Assembly (NCBI GenBank): GCA_020627925.1
Contig: JAHDFY010000005.1
Span: 1-64,000 of the forward strand
Reading direction: 5' to 3'
DNA length: 64,000 nt
Source: a bacterium
Lineage (GTDB): Bacteria; Patescibacteriota; Gracilibacteria; Absconditabacterales; Absconditicoccaceae
Positions 2,546-64,000 of this stretch are shown in pieces (the stretch's first letter is position 1; every line of letters begins with the position of its first letter). The position numbers were made by a program, and so were the translations under genes. The notes beneath the pieces were generated by a model. That model did not search any database. It worked only from the letters and a program-made list of their open reading frames with translations, and had not been told where the DNA came from.

Positions 2546-3637
2546 CTATTTCACTACGACAACCTCTTCTCCTTCAAATTCTACGACAATACTTGTAGGG
2601 ACAAAATACCAGTGGACAACATTAAATGATGCTTTGACTTCACCAGCATGAACAAAATTTTCTTGCACGAGGTTCGGATTATGTTTGATGATTTGAAAAA
2701 CCATATCACAAGTATTTGCTCCACATTGATAGATTTCTTCAAGTGGCTTGTGACGATGGTGCTGCAATGAATACCCTTGACCAAAAAAAGGCCTAATATA
2801 CTCCCAAAAATTCTCATTGCTATACAGCGCTCAAAGTGCGAATTCTCTTTGATATTCCTCCTGATTGTATTGTGTAAATTCCACAATGAGAGAGTGGGGA
2901 TCATCACCCAAAATTGTAATTGGCGCCTGGCCATCAATAAACAACACAACCGATTCTGATACAAAATCAAGCAATCAAAACTGCAGCGTGACAAAGAGCC
3001 TCCCATTTTTTCGAGAAGCACGTTGATGGGAAGGAGTGGCAAGGCTATCTTTTGCATACACCAAAAGCTCCAAAGAAATTTCTTTTTGCTGAAAATCTCG
3101 CCTTCCTCATTTATAATCAAAGACAACCTCTTCGCCCCAATATTGATTGATAGTCGCTTGATAGTGATCAATCGAGAACTGCGTTGCTTTGATATGCAAA
3201 AGCGAGCTTGAGTAGTTATGACCGGTAAGAAATAGTCACACCAACAACAAAAAATAAAAGAGAGACAGCAACACGCTAGGCCTTGTCAATCACGTGTCTA
3301 CATTGTCAAGTTTTGTTTGAACGATAAGTCAATATCTTATCCCTCCAGAAATAAGCAATCCGACAACAAAATAATAGATACCATTCCATTCCGCTGCATA
3401 TGTAAAATTGCTCACAACATTTGCCCACCAATAATGATTAGGTACCCATTCAAAATGAAACATAAAATGAATAGCGCAGAGCAAGAGTATCACATGAAAT
3501 AAAACAAGTGGATACCCTCGCCATTTTTTGTGACGAATCAAATATAAACCGGGAGCTATCAATATATTTCGCATATAGTTAAGATAGGAAGGTAAATGGT
3601 TGGTTCTTCTATAGCTGTATATTTCCAATATAGGCAT
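2546..3637 (-). CDS. Polytopic membrane protein of unknown function
   Basis: This 363-residue protein joins two open stretches across six in-frame TGA codons (for example at 3329, 3236 and 2831). Two hydrophobic segments lie in the N-terminal third (PLVLFHVILLLCAIHFMF and an YFVVGLLISGGIRYG stretch), and a third follows TRPS (VLLSLLFYFLLLVG). A soluble domain of about 220 residues ends in an acidic/valine tail (EGEEVVVVK). I recognise no family. The start is uncertain. ATG 3637 lies just after a terminator-like hairpin; the same frame is open upstream to 3845 with only a TTG (3784) as start, and ATG 3574 is also possible. I chose 3637 because the region before it looks like a structured leader. 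Confidence 0.7.
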
Positions 3638-7969: not shown

Positions 7970-9514
7970 ATGATTCACATTATCAAAACATTCACCAATA
8001 TAGGACTGCACGGTCATGAAATAACGATTGAAGCAGATCAAAATAAAGCACTTCCCACTATCGATATTATCGGCCTACCTGATGCAGCAATCAAAGAGGC
8101 CAAAGAACGCATAAGAGCAACATACCGTAATTGCGGTCTTAAGCTACCTGCCAACAAAATTATTCTTAATCTTGCCCCCTCTCATATTCGCAAAGAGGGA
8201 ACTCGCTTTGATGTTGCAATGGCAATGGCTATTTTGACATTGATCAATGATGGAAATATTCACCACAAACAAAAGCTTACTGATTATCTATTCTTTGGTG
8301 AGCTTGGGCTTGATGGCTCGGTTAAAAAAATAAGCGGTATCTTACCTTCGGTGATTAGTGCTATTAAGATGGGGTATACGCATTTTTTTGTTCCAGCAGA
8401 TAATTTGTATGAGCTTGCTTATATTCAAGACATATTTTTGTATCCTCTTGAGACGTTTGTGCAACTTGTCGAGCATTTTACTTGATCACAATCCATAACT
8501 CCTTTGTACAATCACAAACAAATTGAAGATATTGTACATGTACCTTCAGAAAATAACATTGATTTTTGTCATATAAAATGACATGCTTTCGCTAAGAGAG
8601 CTCTGTGTATTGCTGCTGCTTGATTGCACAACGTGCTCATGGTTGGAAGCCCTTGAAGCGGAAAAACAATGCTTGCAAGAGCACTTCACGCAATTTTACC
8701 TCCTTTGGGAAAAAAAGAAATATTACATGTGTCACAGATTTACTCTTTGGTGGGAAAACTTTCACAAGAAAAGCCACTTATTACTCACAGACCATTTCGC
8801 CAAGTGCATCATACTGCAAGCAAAATTTCTATCGTAGGAGGAGGAAGACATTTGACACCGGGAGAAGTATCGCTTGCTCACAAAGGAGTGTTATTTTTTG
8901 ATGAGGTACCAGAGTTTCCAAGAGAAGTGCTTGAAGTGCTCAGACAACCTATTGAAGACAAACACATCAATATTTCACGTGTTTCATGAACGGTGCAGTA
9001 TCCTTCTAATTTTATGTTTGTAGGGACGATGAATCCTTCACCGTGTTGATATTACAATGATCCTGAAATACCATGCAAAAGTTCCTATGCGGAAGTCAAA
9101 CGCTATCAATCTAAGGTATCGGGACCACTGTTGGACAGGATTGATGTCGTGATAGAAGTACCAAGAGAGAAATTAGACAAAATTTTGCATGAGCAACAAG
9201 AAGAAACTTCTGAACAAATAAGGCAAAAAGTACTCAAAGCACGACATGTACAGCAAAAAAGATACAAGGGAACTTCTTTGGTTACCAACGCCCATCTTTC
9301 TGCACAGAATATTCAACATTATATTCCACTCGATGACGTGACTAAGTCTTTTCTCACCAAAGCAGCCAAAAAAATGAAATTATCAGCAAGAGTAGTACAT
9401 AGAACGCTTAAATTGGCAAGAACAATTGCTGATATAGAGCAACAAGAACAGGTCGTTGTCACACATATAGCAGAAGCACTGCAATATAGAAACAAAACAA
9501 TGTTTATAGAATAA
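7970..9514 (+). CDS. comM: YifB/ComM-like Mg-chelatase-family AAA+ ATPase
   Basis: Members of this family (ComM/YifB) are AAA+ helicases that promote branch migration when single-stranded DNA is integrated during natural transformation. The 514-residue product, close to the family length of about 507, is continuous only with TGA as Gly (for example around 8483, 8579, 8988 and 9047). It has the N-terminal ChlI-type domain (about 5-170; [16 protein letters not shown]), Walker A GSPGSGKT (about residue 224), Walker [11 protein letters not shown], a sensor region [12 protein letters not shown] and the C-terminal ChlI C domain. I chose ATG 7970 over the upstream GTG 7937 because the family starts just before this motif. 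No other competence gene is in view. Confidence 0.93.
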
Positions 9515-11319: not shown

Positions 11320-11399
11320 CTTGTTTTCAAAAAAAGTATCACTAATAAAAAAATGAATAAAGAATAGGAACTCTTTTCTTTTACTCTGATTATGCGATA

Positions 11400-13583
11400 A
11401 TGCTTAACAAAAAATTTCAATATGTTGCAGTTGATTTTGAAACAACAGGTCTTGATATAGAAAAGGAAGAACCTATTCAAATAGGAATTGTGCAGTGTGA
11501 TGAATCTGCCAATGTTATTGATGCATACGTATCATACATAAAACCAACAAAAGATGTTAAAGATCTCAAACAAATAGTGACATTGATTACTGGTCTCTCT
11601 CTCAGTGATGTAGTGGATGCACCTCCAAGAGAACAAGTCTATGATGATATCAAAAAACACATAAAATCTAATGCAATCTTGATCGGTCACAACATAGGCT
11701 TTGATATGGCATTCCTCAAAAAATACTGGGATTCATGTACGGTAGCATGACAAATTGATACCTACACTTTGTCGCTTGCAATGATGCACTACCAAAAAAG
11801 TTATGCACTGGAATCATTGACACAAAGTATCTATGATAATCCAATCTATCAATCATATTACAACAAAATTAAGCAACAAGTAGAAAAACTTTCTGAAATG
11901 AAAGCGCATGATGCTCTGTATGATTGTGTACAGTCACAGGCGTTATTTTTCTACATTGTTGATCGTATACAACAACTACAAACAACGTACCCGTCGTTGA
12001 ATCAATGTCTGTCTAAGTCGCAATGAATATTTTCTGCAATATTACCTTGAGCAAAGCAAAGCGCTGCTTCTATTTCTTTTCCGTTACTCGAGCGTATGGT
12101 TAGTCCACAAAGGTCAGTAGCAAAGCAGGCTAATGATTCTTTTTTTGATACTACACATCAGCAGTGTTATATTGGAAAAAATGGTTTCAAAAATTTTCTT
12201 GCGGAAGTGACACAGCACAAAATTGTCTTGGCTTTTTCGCATAGAAGCAAAATAGATATTGCAAAAAATATCCTTAATGAATTAGGTCATACCAATATTT
12301 CTTACATCAAAGAAGAACAATATATCGATCAAAGACAATTCGATCTTCGATTAAACAAGTCGCACATGACAGAGTCAGAATTTCTTTTTTGTTGTAAATA
12401 CCTTTCTCAACATGAGCAATGATTTGGTATTGTTGATATCAAAACACTCAATGATAAGTCGATACTACACACTATCCAAAAAAAATTAGATTATAAACCT
12501 CAAGATATTGTACTTGCTACGCATGGTGGGCTATATGCACTGCTCGAGAATAAGCTAGCAATTGATACACAGTGGCTAGAGGACTATACGATTGTTTATG
12601 CGGATCTTGAGCGATGGTATACTAGTTACAATAAATATGCAAATAATAGTTTTGACCCCTATTATGTATTGGATTGGATTACGACGTTGTGTTATAAATA
12701 TGATGTGCGTGCTACCACGAGGGGAGAAGTTGCACACAAACAAGCAAACGAAAAAATGAAAAAATTATACGCTGGTTTTGCTATTTGGTTGGCACTTTGG
12801 ACCAATGAAATGGGAGAATTTTTTAAAAAACGCAAGAGTAGTAGTATTATTGCTTCGCCATTGCTGGATTCATTGGACTGCTACCACAGTTCAAAAATTT
12901 GGCACAATGTATTGTGATATGTTAAAGAGGTTCTTCCATTGCTGACTTCTTTGGAAGCAAAGAGACTTGAATCGATGATTAATAATCTTTCGGATCTTTT
13001 GCAAACAATGGTAAAAATTGAAAGAAAATTATCCAACGGTTACGTTATTTTTACTCTTGCGCATGAAGTAAGTTTTACGGACTTTAGTGAGTTATTGGCA
13101 TTGTTTGCTTGATATAATAATGTACTAGTATCAAACACTGCACAATGACATCATCCTATGGCTATTGCAAATACCTATCCACAAACACAAAAAGCATTTG
13201 CTATCAAAGACGTTAACGGTTTTAATTCATTCCTACAAGAATTATCTGAGCGAGAAAAAAAAGAAAATGAAAGCCCTATCTTCTTTGTTGTTTCTACAAG
13301 AAAAAATTTATCTAAAGGATTTCTTGATAAGTTATATAAGCAATGAATGCACAAAAAATATGACCTTTTGGTGGAAAATATTACAGGAGGTATAGGAAAA
13401 CTTGTCATGAAAGCAAAGAAGCCATGACCAAAAATTATTATTGGTGGTTATCATTTTCTTTTGCAATTATTTTCTCAAAAACAAAAAATTGACATTTGTT
13501 TTATTTTGAATATAGTTTGAGGGTTGAAAGATCAAATTTTAGCAGACATTCGTTGGTATGGAGCAAACCAAGCAGCTACATAA
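11400..13583 (+). CDS. DnaQ-type 3'-5' exonuclease fused to a degenerate DinG-like helicase region
   Basis: This 727-residue protein is open across many TGA codons. The N-terminal DEDDh exonuclease domain (1-200) has all motifs: ExoI DFETTG, ExoII GHNIGFDMAFL and ExoIII HDALYDCVQ. The rest follows the order of Firmicutes DinG (exonuclease plus XPD-like helicase). A Walker A region is expected near residue 215 but no GxGKT is present (LPGAKQSAAS instead). The segment IVLATHGGLYALL matches the DinG 'IV.TNHALL' segment, but IVYADLERW stands where the DEAH box should be. The C-terminal part (FFVVSTRKNL..., then KIIIGGYHFLLQLF) resembles the DinG helicase C domain. I infer an active nuclease with a non-catalytic helicase scaffold. 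It overlaps the next gene by 26 bases. Confidence 0.72.
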
Positions 13584-14623: not shown

Positions 14624-15388
14624 ATGACTACGCTGATACAACAATCACTCAAAAGTTTTTGATTTTCTGAAAAAGAAATAGCAGTTTATACAACACTACT
14701 CAAACTCACTAGTGCGCCAGTCTCAACACTAGCAAGACATACATGAATCAAAAGAGTCTCAGTCTATCCGGTTGTAGAGTGACTTATCAAAAAATGAGTA
14801 GCAAAAGAGCATGTCAATCATGATGGAAAATATTTTAGTGTTATTGCTCCTCAAGAGCTTTGCAAAAAACAACAAAAAAAAGTAGATAAACTTCATGAAG
14901 CTGTGCCATTGCTTGTGCAAATGATGGGAAATTTTTCTAATAAGCCACTATTACAGTATTATGAGTGAATAGATGGAATCAAAAAAATTTATGAAGATAT
15001 GCTGACATCACAAGAAGATATTCGTGCTTTTTTAGGGATAAAGGATATGAACCAAGAACTTAATGAATATCTCAATGAGGTACACATCCCAGCAAGAATA
15101 AAAAATAAAGTACGAGCAAGAGTATTACTTGCAAACACACCTTCACACAAACAATTATATGGCGCACACCACGACTGACCCAACAACCAAAAAGAACTCT
15201 ATACCGAATCAAAAAGTATTGCACATGACTCTTTTGTCTTATGAAACGAAATTGATCTTTATGGTCCTGACAAGGTTGCAGTAGTGCTATACAACCAAGG
15301 TGAACTTTCAGGATTTATCATTGAAAGTAAGACACTTTATGAGTCATTGAGATCTTTATTCGATTTAGCTCGATCAGCAACCAACTAA
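14624..15388 (+). CDS. TrmB-family transcriptional regulator
   Basis: This 254-residue protein is read through seven TGA codons. The N-terminal winged helix-turn-helix (about residues 10-75: FGFSEKEIAVYTTLLKL, then TLARHTGIKRVSVYPVVEGLIKKG) is typical of TrmB-type regulators, which are common in CPR genomes. The C-terminal part has the TrmB effector-like segment, with IRAFLG near residue 135 and a final FDLARSA region. The ligand cannot be read from sequence. It sits between the protease and the EgtD-like gene; the latter starts one base after its stop codon (15390), so the two are almost certainly co-transcribed and it may regulate its own operon. Confidence 0.85.
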
Positions 15389-15389
15389 T

Positions 15390-17891
15390 ATGAAAATTTG
15401 GGGAAAACCAACAAATAGAGGTACTGCTGATTCCACCATTGATACAACCATAAAACAACAAACCTTCCACTATGATACATATTTGGAATCTTTTTTGGAT
15501 AAAGAAAAAACAACAGTTTCTGGTTTTTTGCGAGAAGGAAAAGGAGCTCATCTGTACAAAGAATATAGAGATTCATGAGAATATTGGCCTGAAGAAGTGC
15601 AGCTCGCTATGTTGTTGCACAACCAAGAGTTGAAGCAGTTAATACAATCCTTACACCCGGATTTAGTCATAGATATGGGGGTGGGGGATGGTGTGACACT
15701 GGCGCATGTCTTACAATCTGTAGCTTTGAGAGAGAATGGAAAGCTTCCGCCTGTTTCGTTGCTTGATATCTCCGATGAAAACATAGCATTGGCAAAACAA
15801 ACGATTAAGCAGCATCATCTTCCTATATCAGAACTAGATAGGTACGGATTGGATTTCAAAAAGGCATGAAAGCTCTTCTCACACAAAGATTTCTCTCCCA
15901 AACTCGTTCTCAATCTTTGATTTTGATTTGGTAATTTTGAGTCAAAAAAATTACAAGAGCGCGATCAAGAAATTCTTACGGATGCGCGTGACAGGTTGTT
16001 GTTTACGTTTTTTGGCGTTCCACGTGATGTAGACGCAATCAAAAAAACAGAGGATGCTTATGACACTCCCTGAGCACAAAAATTTGTAAAACATGGAGTA
16101 GCTAATCTTTTTTCTCAGTTTCCAGTTGTGGTGGGTACTGATGATGTCAAAAAAGAAGTTGATGACGCAAAATATGAAGTGACCTACAACGTGCAAAAGC
16201 AACAAATTGAAGTGGCTCTTCGCTTTGCCAATGGTTTTTGTATAAAACGTCCAGGTAAAAAAGATTGTTGGATTAGTGCAGGAGAATCATACATCGTTCA
16301 TATTTCCAAAAGATATACACAACAACAAGTTACAACACTTATGCAGTCGACAGGAAAGAGGGTAACAGATTTTATTGTTGATAAAGCAAGTGGTGTCACT
16401 TTTGCTCTTGCAGACAATAAACCACAAAGAAGAAAACAGACTATCAAAAAAGTAGCGCAGTCAGGAGCATTGGCCTTGAGTTTACTACTTGCTTCTCGAG
16501 GAGCAAAAAAGTATGACCATCACCAAAAAAGCATGCAAGATAAACAAAGGATTGCTGCGCTCTATGATTCACTTACCAACACTATCAAAGAAACAACCGT
16601 CTATCCATATAATAATTTGCGACGCTACAATACTAATGCAGATGGAAAAATGACAGATAAAGAAAAATATACAAAAATAACAGAACAGGCTAACTACATC
16701 ATGAATATATACCTTCCATGTCGTTACGGTATTGATAAAAAACAAGTAGATACTGTCTATGTGCAAAAAAAATTGTATGACTTCCTTACCAATGATGAAA
16801 TACAAAAAGAAATCAAATATAATTATCTCATGATGAGTGGCGGAAAGGTTATTTTTAATCGTATTGCTGAGAGATTTTACAAAAAAATGACTCCTTATTT
16901 TGAATCTATAACAGAAGAGTCATTAATTCCCAATAAACTATTTCTTTCATATAATCAAGAATTCTTGAACACCATTTATTGATTGCCATTAGACAAAAAA
17001 GGAAGTGTTCAGACTCAACAATTACATATAACAAAAGAGGAACTGATCCCTTGAGGTTTTTTTTATACAACTCATCACAACAGAAAAGATAATCGAGGCT
17101 TTAGCGTAAACGGTATTTCTTTTCTCAAAAGAATTTTTGATCAAAAAACAAGCAAATGGTATATTATGGCAACATATCCATGTACTTTACCAAGCGAAAA
17201 TCCAGCAAAAGATTTTGATGATAATAATTATTCTTTGAATCGAGGAAGACAAATAGCGATGAATTATATGATACATAATGACAAAAAGACACAAGCATTT
17301 TTGGATATTTATGAAGCATATGTAGCAAAAGTGGCCGATCGAACCAGTCGAGAAACGAATACGGAGAATATCATCATGCCTTTTCTTGATGCAATCAAAC
17401 AAGATACAACAGATCATGATTCTCAAGAAAGTGCTAGAGCAGCAATGATGTCTTTGTTGTTTGAAAAATCATCTATCCAAAAAAATGGTGACACGTCACT
17501 AGTTGTATTTGACGAAAAACCACTTATCCGTTTTACAAAAAAAACTTTTTGTAGAGAATTAATTGGATATGAAGACGCAATAGAAAATACCATGCAAGAA
17601 TGAACCAACGACCCAATATTTGAAAATATTAATTTTAGAAACATGAGAGAAGGAGTACACAAAGGCGAAAAAGCCACTATCTCTTATCTAGGAATATTTA
17701 TTGCAATGGATGGAAAAACGTACGATCTTGCACTCTGTAGTAAGACAGAATGGTGAAAAGAAAAAAGGTACATACTTGCAATGAAAGCAGATGATGACAA
17801 AGAAAATCAATCACTGACACAGTATTATTCGCTCAACTTGGCACAAAAAATACTTGGTGATTATAGCAAAATACACAAAAAATTACGATAA
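15390..17891 (+). CDS. EgtD-like SAM methyltransferase fused to a large unknown domain
   Basis: This 833-residue protein is one frame through about ten TGA codons. Residues about 60-340 match the histidine-specific (EgtD-type, Methyltransf_33) methyltransferase plan: SAM site DLVIDMGVGDGVTL, the GNFE segment, DARDRLLFTFFGV, and a C-terminal beta domain ending GESYIVHISKRYTQQQVT and VDKASGVTFALA. In known members this family trimethylates histidine in ergothioneine synthesis; the substrate here is unknown. A hydrophobic patch (about 355-370) and a region of about 460 residues follow with no domain I recognise; that region is rich in Lys, Tyr and Asp. No other ergothioneine gene is in view. It directly follows the TrmB regulator. 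Confidence 0.68.
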
Positions 17892-60126: not shown

Positions 60127-60564
60127 TTATGCTATATCGTACATCATTTTTATTTTGAAATCAAGACCGCTGATAAGTTCCATTTCTGTTGTGTGGAGAA
60201 TAGCATGAGGAGTCATTCGTTTGTGGTCTATGTGCTCTTGCGTGTCAAGAATGACACGTGATTTTTCTGATGCTTGATGATGAAATAAGTGATAATGAAA
60301 GTCACCTCGGTCAGCTCTGTAATATAATTCACATACTTTTTTAACCTCATCTATCACAATACCAGCTTCCTCTTTGACTTCTCTGATGACAGCTTCCAGA
60401 GGAGTTTCATTGTGATCGACACCTCCTCAAGGAACACATCGTTTGAGAGGGTGACTTTCTTGCTCTGATCTTTGCAAAAGCAATATTTCTCCACCGTGTT
60501 CTACAATAGCTCCTGCTACCACAAATTTAGGCAAAAAATTCTCAGGTTTTTTCAGTAAAAACAT
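60127..60564 (-). CDS. NUDIX hydrolase
   Basis: This 145-residue protein has a complete NUDIX box at about residues 46-68 (GGVDHNETPLEAVI then REVKEEAGI: G-x5-E-x7-REU-x-EE-x-GU). One Gly of the preceding VPGGG is TGA. The family cleaves nucleoside diphosphates linked to another group (X), such as oxidised NTPs or ADP-ribose; the substrate is not set by the sequence. ATG 60564 begins 24 bases after the T run of a structured leader with its own strong promoter (60588-60770), which suggests control by transcription attenuation. Confidence 0.9.
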
Positions 60565-60587: not shown

Positions 60588-60737
60588 AAAAAAAAGTCCA
60601 GAAAGTTAGATAAACTTCCTGGACACGTAACCACGTAGTGATTTTTACGAATAGGCTGCTTGGTGAGCCTATTCTTGTGATTACGTTGGGCATATGGTCT
60701 TTTAGACCATATGTCCTACCACCATATTATTACTTCA
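60588..60737 (-). promoter_or_regulatory. Structured leader RNA before the NUDIX gene (riboswitch-like candidate)
   Basis: On the minus strand the RNA can form P2 (CAUAUGGUC/GACCAUAUG, 5-nt loop), P3 (ACGUAAUCAC/GUGGUUACGU, 10 bp, one G-U) enclosing a 9-bp hairpin (GAAUAGGCU/AGCCUAUUC), and P1 (GGACA with UGUCC) closing the junction. The 3' strand of P1 (GUCC) is also the first part of a 12-bp terminator (GUCCAG-G-AAGUU with AACUU-U-CUGGAC, then eight U). P1 and the terminator exclude each other: the design of a transcriptional riboswitch or attenuator. The pairing is seen in the sequence; the ligand and function are unknown. I could not match it to a named class. Confidence 0.6.
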
Positions 60738-60742
60738 TTAGG

Positions 60743-60770
60743 ATTATAAGAAAAATAAAGACAATGTCAA
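60743..60770 (-). promoter_or_regulatory. Strong promoter of the NUDIX leader
   Basis: On the minus strand a perfect TTGACA (60765-60770), a 16-base spacer and a perfect TATAAT (60743-60748) stand just after the stop of the upstream coiled-coil gene and before the structured leader. Confidence 0.85.
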
Positions 60771-60781
60771 CTAAATGTTTT

Positions 60782-61765
60782 CTATTGAAACAATGGCTGT
60801 GAGTCATAGGTTGCAGAAAGTATTTGCGTGTTATCATCACTCCATTGTAGATCAATCTGGTATGTCTTTCCTCCAGGTGTAACTTCATAGCTTATTTTTT
60901 TGTGGTGATCAGGGTATATTTCTGGAAGTTTCACAAATTTTCCCTCATTGTTATAAAAATAATAGACAAGAGTGTCTTTGTGGGATCATCGAGTTTTGCG
61001 AATACTCTCCACCTTGATGTTGACTGGTTCTCCGTCTTGGGTTTGATCAAGAGTAATAGTATAATTCCCATCAGCTCACTCAATACTGGCTTGACGAAGA
61101 CGGTTTTTTTCTGCAGATTCCAATGCATCGGTATTGATTGCATCAGCAAAATCCTCACGTGCTTGTGTATTTTCAAACGATGCATTGTAGGCGGTCAGAG
61201 CCTCAAGATTTTCGCGATAGCGTTCTATATCTCTTTGAGCATCATTGATCAGCAAATCATTGCTGCGTCTTTTGTTGAGATTGTTGATAAGCGCTTGTTG
61301 GGTGTCTTTTTTTTGTGAGTCGAGTATAGCCAAATTATCATTGAGCGATTGCAGTTTTGCTCTCAAAGCTGCTGCTTCAAATTTGTTCTTTGCTTCGAAG
61401 CTTCTCATCATCAAATGTTTTCTTTTAGCGATTTGTTGCTCTCTTTTGGCTCTTACTCTGGGGTTTCTTACCTTTGCAAGTCATTGTTTTTGTTGGTCTA
61501 TTCTAAGTTCAATGTGGTGCTGTTTTTGGTAAAAATCCGTTTGCTTAAGCTTGTTGATTTCTTTGGTGATGGCAGCGATTTGCTGATCTATATCTTGCAT
61601 GTTTTCTTGAGCGGATTTATCTGACATATCGACCGCAGTGTTCCTTTTTTGTACACTTTCAAGAAACTTGAGTGTTTTTGCTATTTTTTGTTCCCAAATC
61701 GCTTGGTCACTTTGTTGTTTGGTTGCTTCTTTTGTTTCGTGTCAACGAATTGCGTCGATTGTCAT
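60782..61765 (-). CDS. Coiled-coil protein with C-terminal beta domain
   Basis: This 327-residue protein has no signal peptide. Residues about 10-235 form almost continuous Gln/Lys/Glu-rich helices (coiled coil). The C-terminal 90 residues (from EGADGNYTITLDQTQDGEPV, Gly from TGA) look like a beta domain. The coil resembles other CPR coiled-coil proteins but I recognise no family. It directly follows the SLH-like surface protein in the same direction (33 bases), so it may be in that operon. No terminator precedes the NUDIX leader promoter. Confidence 0.72.
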
Positions 61766-61798: not shown

Positions 61799-64000
61799 TT
61801 AGTAGTCAGCATCAAATAAATCCTTGATGTATTGGTCGTATTTGTCATCGCTTACTTGATAGAAGAAGTTGTCCGCCGAACTAGTATCGTAGTTGTAGTT
61901 ATACATTTCTCCTTTCATTGCTGATTGAAGTATTCCCATGAGTGTTTCAGGATCCAAACCAACTTTATACATTCTGTTAGGTGACATTTCGTTGAGCTTA
62001 AAGATAATTCTATTGATGACATATCTTCTTTCTCTAATACTTAGCACTTGCAATTTGTCATACAAGGCACTCAAGAAGTGATCATTAAATCACATCACCA
62101 CTTGACTATTACCTCTGAGTGCATGTGCAACCGTATAGGCAAGTTCTTCTCTTGTTACACATTGTACACCATTTGCCAAAAGCGGTTTGAGTACATTAGT
62201 ATCTTCGTTTGCAAGACGATAGAGTCTAAACATTATTTCTTTCATTTCTTGGTGAGTAATAGGTTTGTTGGGATACATGTATTTCTTTCCATTTTTTACC
62301 TCTATGTGATTCCCATCAATGATTCCTTTTCTGTATCATCGATTGATAAAGTTGGTAATGTGAGGGTTAAAATTAGCATCTTCAAAAGGCGTATCTTCGT
62401 ACATTCTTGTGTATACATCTTGATCTCCTCTCATGTGCATTACTTTTGCCGCCACAATAACTCCTTCAACATATGAAGTACATTTTTTGGGTGAGAACAA
62501 TCTTGCATGTTTGTAATTGTATCCATTCATTAATCCCATTCTTGTCACCGTCATGATATGCATATACCACTGATGACCAGGAAGAATATCTCTATAAATG
62601 AAATCTGTATTAATCCAGTTAATGATCATTTTGTATCTGTCAATCAGTGATTTCATCGAAAGCAGCGGGTTGATTACATAACCATCAAACTGTGTCAACT
62701 CATCAATAATTAATGTTGATGCACTTTGGTTGTTGTTGAGCGGATTAGGATCGTCGACCAAAGAAGTAATTTGAGCATTGTTGGTCAAGTCAGAAGAGCC
62801 AAAGATCGTACGAACCTTTCACGATACTTCTACCTTTCCTGTTTTTCCTGATGGAATGTCACCAACAGAAAAAAGCATTCTATCATAAGTAATGGTTGGT
62901 GTTGCACCAGTCGTTGCTCCTGAGGTAACGATACCAGACATAGTAAATAGCATGTCTGATTCCAAATCTTCCAATAGCTCTGAATAAATGTATTCGACAA
63001 CAGCTCCTGTTGCTGTATCAGGACCATTATTTTTGTAAATAAGTTCAAATACAATTCTTTTTCCTCTTACGACAGATCATGATGCAGCTGTGTGACTTTG
63101 TATTTTGAGGTCTGCTAATTTTCCAGGAAATGTAAGTGCTTGCGCAGTACATGTTTGCCCATTGAGAATGGTTTGTTGTCCACAGACACATCCATCAAAA
63201 TCATTACAAACATCGCCTACATCCAGAATAGGTTGTACGCCATCAGTACATGCATTAGAACCTGTTCCGTTGATAACACATGTTTGTGGCCCTGAATCGT
63301 CACAATCTCCGTTGAGACATTGTGCAGCACAAGAAGCATCATTTCCTCAATTGATTCCATCACAATTCCATACCCAGTATCCAGCATTATTACTGACTAC
63401 TCCAGGTGTTCATCCATCACAGAGTAGTGTCGGCTTGTTTGATACCGCAACCGAGTAAGAAGTACAATCACCATCTTCAATTTGATTGATGGTACATGAA
63501 TCATCAGTTCCAGAAAAAACATTTTGACAGGTGTATGTCCATACATTACCTATCGGATCCGCAAGAAGAGGTGCAGATGGCGTTCCTTGCGTACATTGCA
63601 GATAGTTGGTTACATCGGAATAATAGAATGTCTGATTGTTGGTAATAGGATTACACAAACCATTGACTGGAGCAGATGGTTCATAAGCAATACAATCACT
63701 ATCCAAAAGACCATTGTTGATTCCCCCCGGACAAGTCCATGTCCATTCTGTATCATATTGAGGGTCTGTAGAGTTGACTGCTTGGAAGTTTGTTGCTAAT
63801 CCTTGTACACATAGATCGGGACTATTGCTTGTAAGACTTGCATAGGTTGCTTGGTGAGCAATGCCACAAGATGCTTTGACAGCACCCACTCTACATTCTG
63901 TCGAGACATTTGATGATGGTCACGTACAATCCCATACCCATTCATGATCATAAAATGGACTAAGAGAGGTTTGAATACCAAAATTGGCAGGCTGACCGTT
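61799..64000 (-). CDS. Cys-rich modular surface protein with SLH-like C-terminus (partial)
   Basis: The frame is open to the window edge, so the N terminus lies beyond 64000; 733 residues are seen. The N-terminal visible part holds repeated Cys-rich modules of about 70 residues (pattern: WVWDCTG..., then ..CRVGAV...CG...; WTWTCPGGINNG..DSDC; WTYTCQNVFSGTDDSC; YWVWNCDGI..NDASC). A DUF11-like beta domain follows (LADLKIQSHTA ... FELIYKNNGPDTATGAVV and NNAQITSLVDDPNPLNNNQ), then a C-terminal region with SLH-like segments (NFINRGYRKGIIDGNHIE, PNKPITHQEMKEIMFRLYRLA). It is probably secreted and bound to the cell surface. Six or more TGA codons are used as Gly. Confidence 0.78.

Follow-up and report, generated by a model that had tools for sequence, protein, structure and literature searches.

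A candidate promoter-terminator leader upstream of a NUDIX hydrolase gene in an Absconditabacterales genome

Introduction

The described systems closest to the locus examined here are the orphan 5' terminators, or attenuators, in which an intrinsic terminator stands directly before a co-directional gene and which have a mean stability of -16.5 kcal/mol (Naville and Gautheret, 2010; PMC2965389). Riboswitches of ykkC subtype 2c sense (d)NDPs and are found before NUDIX and HAD genes (PMC7266159). Terminator-ended small RNAs such as Spot_42 (RF00021) combine a promoter, hairpins and a terminator with a U run in a transcript of similar size.

We analysed a 64,000-nucleotide stretch of DNA (the window) from an uncultured bacterium of the SR1/Gracilibacteria type and focus here on the candidate leader of a NUDIX hydrolase gene. 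This leader resembles the orphan 5' terminators in the position of its terminator and in its predicted stability (-16.2 kcal/mol, close to their mean), but it has no recognisable alternative read-through fold and is not conserved before homologous genes. Like the ykkC 2c riboswitches it includes a terminator and precedes a NUDIX gene; unlike them it gives no match to the covariance model even at E<=10, its architecture is different, and the helix that would close the proposed three-way junction (P1, below) is unstable. With the terminator-ended small RNAs the leader shares a promoter, hairpins, a U8-tailed terminator and a similar size, but it is not a member of the Spot_42 family, for which it scores 19.2 bits where the gathering score is 80.

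Results

The candidate leader lies between two leftward genes, each translated with TGA as Gly:

60782..61765, minus strand: orphan gene of 327 aa, co-directional and 5' of the leader; some 12 nt separate its stop from the -35 box
60127..60564, minus strand: NUDIX hydrolase gene, 145 aa under code 25 (TGA = Gly); Pfam PF00293, E 4e-17

An intact Nudix box, GGVDHNETPLEAVIREVKEEAGI, is readable in the NUDIX protein, and the gene therefore looks functional. The 327-aa protein has no Pfam or NCBIfam family and no homologue among 48 genomes of the family. Neither protein was found in IMG/VR, nor the NUDIX protein in genome_contigs. Farther 5' (61799-64000, minus strand), a gene for a large DUF11 surface-type protein runs off the window.

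The interval between the two genes contains the following elements:

60743..60770, minus strand: sigma-70-type consensus promoter; TTGACA 60770-60765, 16-nt spacer, TATAAT 60748-60743; 12 of 12 positions match
60588..60735, minus strand: predicted structured RNA of about 148 nt, its start placed from the -10 box; minimum free energy (MFE) -57.8 kcal/mol, z -9.1
60688..60716, minus strand: hairpin HP1, a 10-bp stem CAUAUGGUCU/AGACCAUAUG on a GG/CC base; alone -15.5 kcal/mol
60625..60686, minus strand: hairpin HP2, stem ACGUAAUCAC/GUGGUUACGU with an inner 9-bp hairpin at 60674-60649; alone -23.2 kcal/mol
60588..60624, minus strand: intrinsic terminator, 12-bp stem 60624-60596, loop of 5, U8 60595-60588; -16.2 kcal/mol

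A first-pass annotation had read 60588-60770 as a TTGACA-16-TATAAT promoter driving an RNA of about 150 nt, with helices P2 and P3 (the latter enclosing a 9-bp hairpin), a 12-bp terminator with its U run, and the NUDIX ATG 24 bases farther on. This anatomy was recovered on the minus strand: the RNA as the predicted 148-nt folded segment, P2 and P3 as HP1 (10-bp stem) and HP2, the terminator with 12 bp and U8, and the ATG at 60564, by our count 23 nt past the U run.

Perfect promoters of the TTGACA-16-TATAAT type occur nine times in the whole 1.27-Mb genome, compared with once for a reversed-pattern control, so that a chance origin of the 12/12 promoter before the leader is unlikely. No tRNA, tmRNA or known RNA follows the other perfect promoters of the genome. 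Counting from the -10 box, transcription would start at about 60735. Close to the NUDIX ATG no promoter-like site is present on the minus strand; the only strong one lies 5' of the RNA.

The MFE of the 148-nt RNA (-57.8 kcal/mol) compares with -27.2 +/- 3.4 kcal/mol in shuffled sequences (z = -9.1), none of 200 shuffles being as stable, and after G+C correction the fold ranks first for stability when compared with 22,896 windows, each 150 nt long (both strands, 344 kb of the same genome). The predicted structure consists of three helices arranged head to tail, HP1, HP2 with its inner hairpin, and the terminator followed by U8. The terminator stem comprises 11 Watson-Crick pairs and one G-U pair, and its U run follows immediately, which gives the stable stem and adjoining U tract of an intrinsic terminator. 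It is the only minus-strand terminator-like site found between the stop of the 327-aa gene and 60624; as that stop precedes the -35 box by about 12 nt, read-through transcripts of the 327-aa gene would end at the same place.

A 7-codon frame at the start of the RNA (AUG GUG GUA GGA CAU AUG GUC UAA) is a poor candidate for leader-peptide attenuation, as it lacks a run of regulatory codons and stops within HP1. A pseudoknot between UGGUG in the leader and CACCA in the inner loop is matched in 15% of shuffles and is not claimed. The RNA is single-copy in the genome, and a MITE or repeat identity was rejected.

The first-pass annotation had also closed the hairpins into a three-way junction through a helix P1, which was to share its 3' strand (GUCC) with the terminator and thereby to exclude it:

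60712..60716, minus strand: P1 5' strand GGACA; unpaired as P1 in the predicted structure
60621..60625, minus strand: P1 3' strand UGUCC; overlaps HP2 and the terminator, unpaired as P1 in the predicted structure

Neither the junction nor the mutual exclusion was upheld. P1 is missing from both the MFE and the centroid structures, and forcing it yields -42.8 instead of -57.8 kcal/mol, a cost of 15 kcal/mol. Along growing transcripts its probability reaches at most 3%, and completion of the terminator lowers it to less than 1e-7. A fold in which terminator pairing was prohibited (-40.4 kcal/mol) left the terminator arms unpaired and contained no antiterminator. The overlap of P1 with the terminator through GUCC can indeed be drawn, but it is within chance: in 17% of shuffles the 5' region can pair with the 5' arm of the terminator over 5 nt of Watson-Crick complement, and a complement of at least the observed length, with G-U pairs allowed, occurs in 54%. 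The P1/terminator platform is therefore a drawing possibility and not an encoded competition. Mutually exclusive antiterminator and terminator folds of comparable stability, the mark of a riboswitch platform, were not found, and no ligand-driven switch is encoded recognisably in the leader. The switch could yet be saved by a ligand whose stabilisation of P1 exceeded about 10 kcal/mol. The first-pass heading "riboswitch or attenuator" thus stands in its second half, which fits the anatomy; the first half is not supported, with no Rfam match, no homologue in the genomes searched and no competitive antiterminator.

An Rfam scan of the window and of the region gave no match at curated cut-offs and, at E<=10, none to ykkC or any other riboswitch, only sub-threshold chance matches, the best of them to Spot_42 (19.2 bits, E 0.21). 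The comparison with Rfam that the first pass had proposed therefore brought no riboswitch class to its family cut-off, and its remark that no ykkC consensus is visible agrees with the scan. BLAST of the RNA against its own genome, 58 relatives, phages and plasmids returned a single copy in its own genome and short fragments elsewhere. Exact 17-23-base patterns of the RNA had no match in genome_contigs and two matches in viral contigs, both without the hairpins. A covariance model made from the one sequence entered twice, the E-values of which are rough, found no second locus in 353 genomes of the class (including 49 of the family), in a phylum sample of 380 genomes or, with looser filters, in 38 relatives; apart from its own, the genomes covered belong to other genera. 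In these searches the model recovered only the locus itself, its own reverse-complement palindrome and noise. The NUDIX protein has homologues (31-40% identity) in 12 further class genomes, and the leader RNA has no match at any of their loci. There is no conserved link between the RNA and NUDIX genes in the genomes searched.

Start-codon surroundings were surveyed in 344 of the 1,267 kb of the genome (the window plus L048-L061), with genes taken as the longest open frames under code 25. Shine-Dalgarno-like motifs were not enriched: none of the window's 47 genes had one, and in the wider sample the share was 7 of 163, less than the 0.10 expected from background; a 16S gene, sought for its anti-Shine-Dalgarno sequence, was not found in the assembly. 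Scarcity of Shine-Dalgarno motifs and loss of the CCUCC core have been reported for SR1/Absconditabacteria genomes (PMC10783764). The ATGs in our sample are preceded by a T-rich zone at -26 to -19 that peaks at -21 (T 0.58 versus about 0.34; n = 163). In good promoters before genes the -10 box mostly ends some 20-50 nt ahead of the ATG (the bins from -50 to -30 hold 14 of 21 sites); this position places the U-rich zone inside the mRNA leader, where it probably marks the translation start. The U8 of the NUDIX terminator occupies positions -31 to -24 relative to the ATG; it reaches the margin of the zone and lies slightly 5' of the genome-wide peak. Three relatives (G026, G009 and G005) give weaker hints of the same U-rich tract before ATGs.

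Terminator-like hairpins before co-directional genes are distributed bimodally, with 11 at 20-29 nt, one at 30-59 nt and about three per 10 nt at 60-119 nt. The far group has space for a promoter and the near group does not; most of the start-proximal terminators sit behind a co-directional gene. Near hairpins with a U run are exemplified by window 2546-3637 (minus strand) and 14624-15388 (plus strand), by L044 (G000:C5:378068) and by G000:C5 115316, 116567 and 150296. L044, which precedes a 366-aa gene, has the same layout as the NUDIX leader, with a perfect promoter directly before the terminator and the ATG 27 nt past the stem. The tandem genes at G000:C5 ~115316 and 116567 (L055, 15316 and 16567) have matching start-proximal hairpins with paired changes (stems TACTGCTCCTA/TAGGAGTAGTA and TACTACTCCTAA/TTAGGGGTAGTA), each after TTGAAC-17-TATACT. 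Several near hairpins are, judged by eye only, abutted by -10-like sequence, and some of them may be promoter-terminator overlaps that shield the gene from upstream transcription. Within the 366-aa gene behind L044, a tandem 15-bp repeat, TTCCAGTAGTATTGC, runs into masked Ns (L054 ~16951-17160; G000:C5 ~376951).

Discussion

We tentatively favour, with a probability of about 0.47, a lineage-specific promoter-terminator leader, that is, an attenuator, through which the NUDIX gene is expressed by read-through. The elements stand in the order of an attenuator, with the promoter 5' and an intrinsic terminator between the predicted start site and the co-directional gene. Polymerase would start at the perfect promoter (~60735) and transcribe a row of three stable hairpins. 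At the last of these, the terminator, the majority of transcripts would stop and yield a stable RNA of ~148 nt, and those that read through would include the NUDIX frame. In the latter, U8 may double as the U-rich translation-start signal that seemingly replaces the Shine-Dalgarno sequence. The terminator would also end transcripts of the upstream 327-aa gene, and regulation, if there is any, would be due to a trans-acting factor or to plain leakiness of the terminator.

The attenuator is favoured by the 12/12 promoter, by the exceptional stability of the fold (z -9.1, top of the sampled windows), by the terminator, whose 12-bp stem and U8 run stop 23 nt short of the ATG, and by the lack, unlike at other genes, of a strong promoter near the NUDIX ATG. 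The arrangement recurs at L044, and the 11 hairpins at 20-29 nt form a class of their own in the bimodal distribution. The U-rich tract at -26 to -19, together with the lack of enrichment of Shine-Dalgarno motifs, makes start-proximal U runs fit an mRNA leader. Against the attenuator, the genomes searched hold no homologue of the RNA that would point to selection on its structure; a strong terminator and no antiterminator mean that NUDIX is perhaps scarcely expressed from here and may use a promoter of its own that we do not recognise; and several of the other start-proximal terminators may overlap their gene's own promoter or just end the upstream gene.

The completeness of the unit, its very stable helices and its strong terminator would suit an independent small RNA gene of ~148 nt, acting in trans or binding protein, with NUDIX merely adjacent and served by a weak promoter or by leakage. 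This is the main rival, and the missing antiterminator and the missing conserved link to NUDIX count in its favour; we nevertheless hold it to be somewhat unlikely, as no relative searched has a homologue, no separate NUDIX promoter is recognisable, and the ATG follows at a tight 23 nt, which fits an arrangement that recurs in the genome. That the 327-aa gene has no other terminator-like site between its stop and 60624, and that most near-start terminators follow a co-directional gene, would also be expected if the hairpins were the stabilised 3' end of that gene and the promoter-like site were unused or minor. Such a 3' tail is rather improbable: a 12/12 promoter, of which there are nine per genome, would have to fall inside it, and a terminator needs much less structure than HP1 and HP2 provide. 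The weakest candidate is the first-pass reading, a new ligand-sensing riboswitch with a P1/terminator platform. A three-way junction with P1 GGACA/UGUCC sharing GUCC can be drawn, and ykkC 2c riboswitches do have NUDIX genes among their targets (PMC7266159), but the energetic penalty of P1, its low probability in every transcription intermediate, a match within chance, the lack of an Rfam match and, among the genomes searched, of homologues that could show covariation, and NUDIX homologues without the RNA make it very improbable.

If the attenuator reading holds, the locus adds one more orphan attenuator, in a bacterial branch in which RNA-based gene regulation is, to our knowledge, nearly unexplored. 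A U tract ~21 nt before ATGs, supplied in part by terminator U runs, would make start-codon marking testable in candidate-phylum bacteria that lack Shine-Dalgarno sequences. One could go farther and propose that terminator U runs 20-29 nt before starts double as a ribosome entry signal and couple premature termination to translation start, with the NUDIX leader as the most elaborate case, one that might sense a protein or metabolite; to this proposal we attach a low probability.

Two further stretches of the genome, at L054 ~11371-11600 (minus strand; G000:C5 ~371371) and L060 ~8811-9010 (plus strand; G000:C1 ~148811), are strongly folded into long hairpins that end in a terminator-like stem and T run, and have no Rfam match; they are possible non-coding RNAs.
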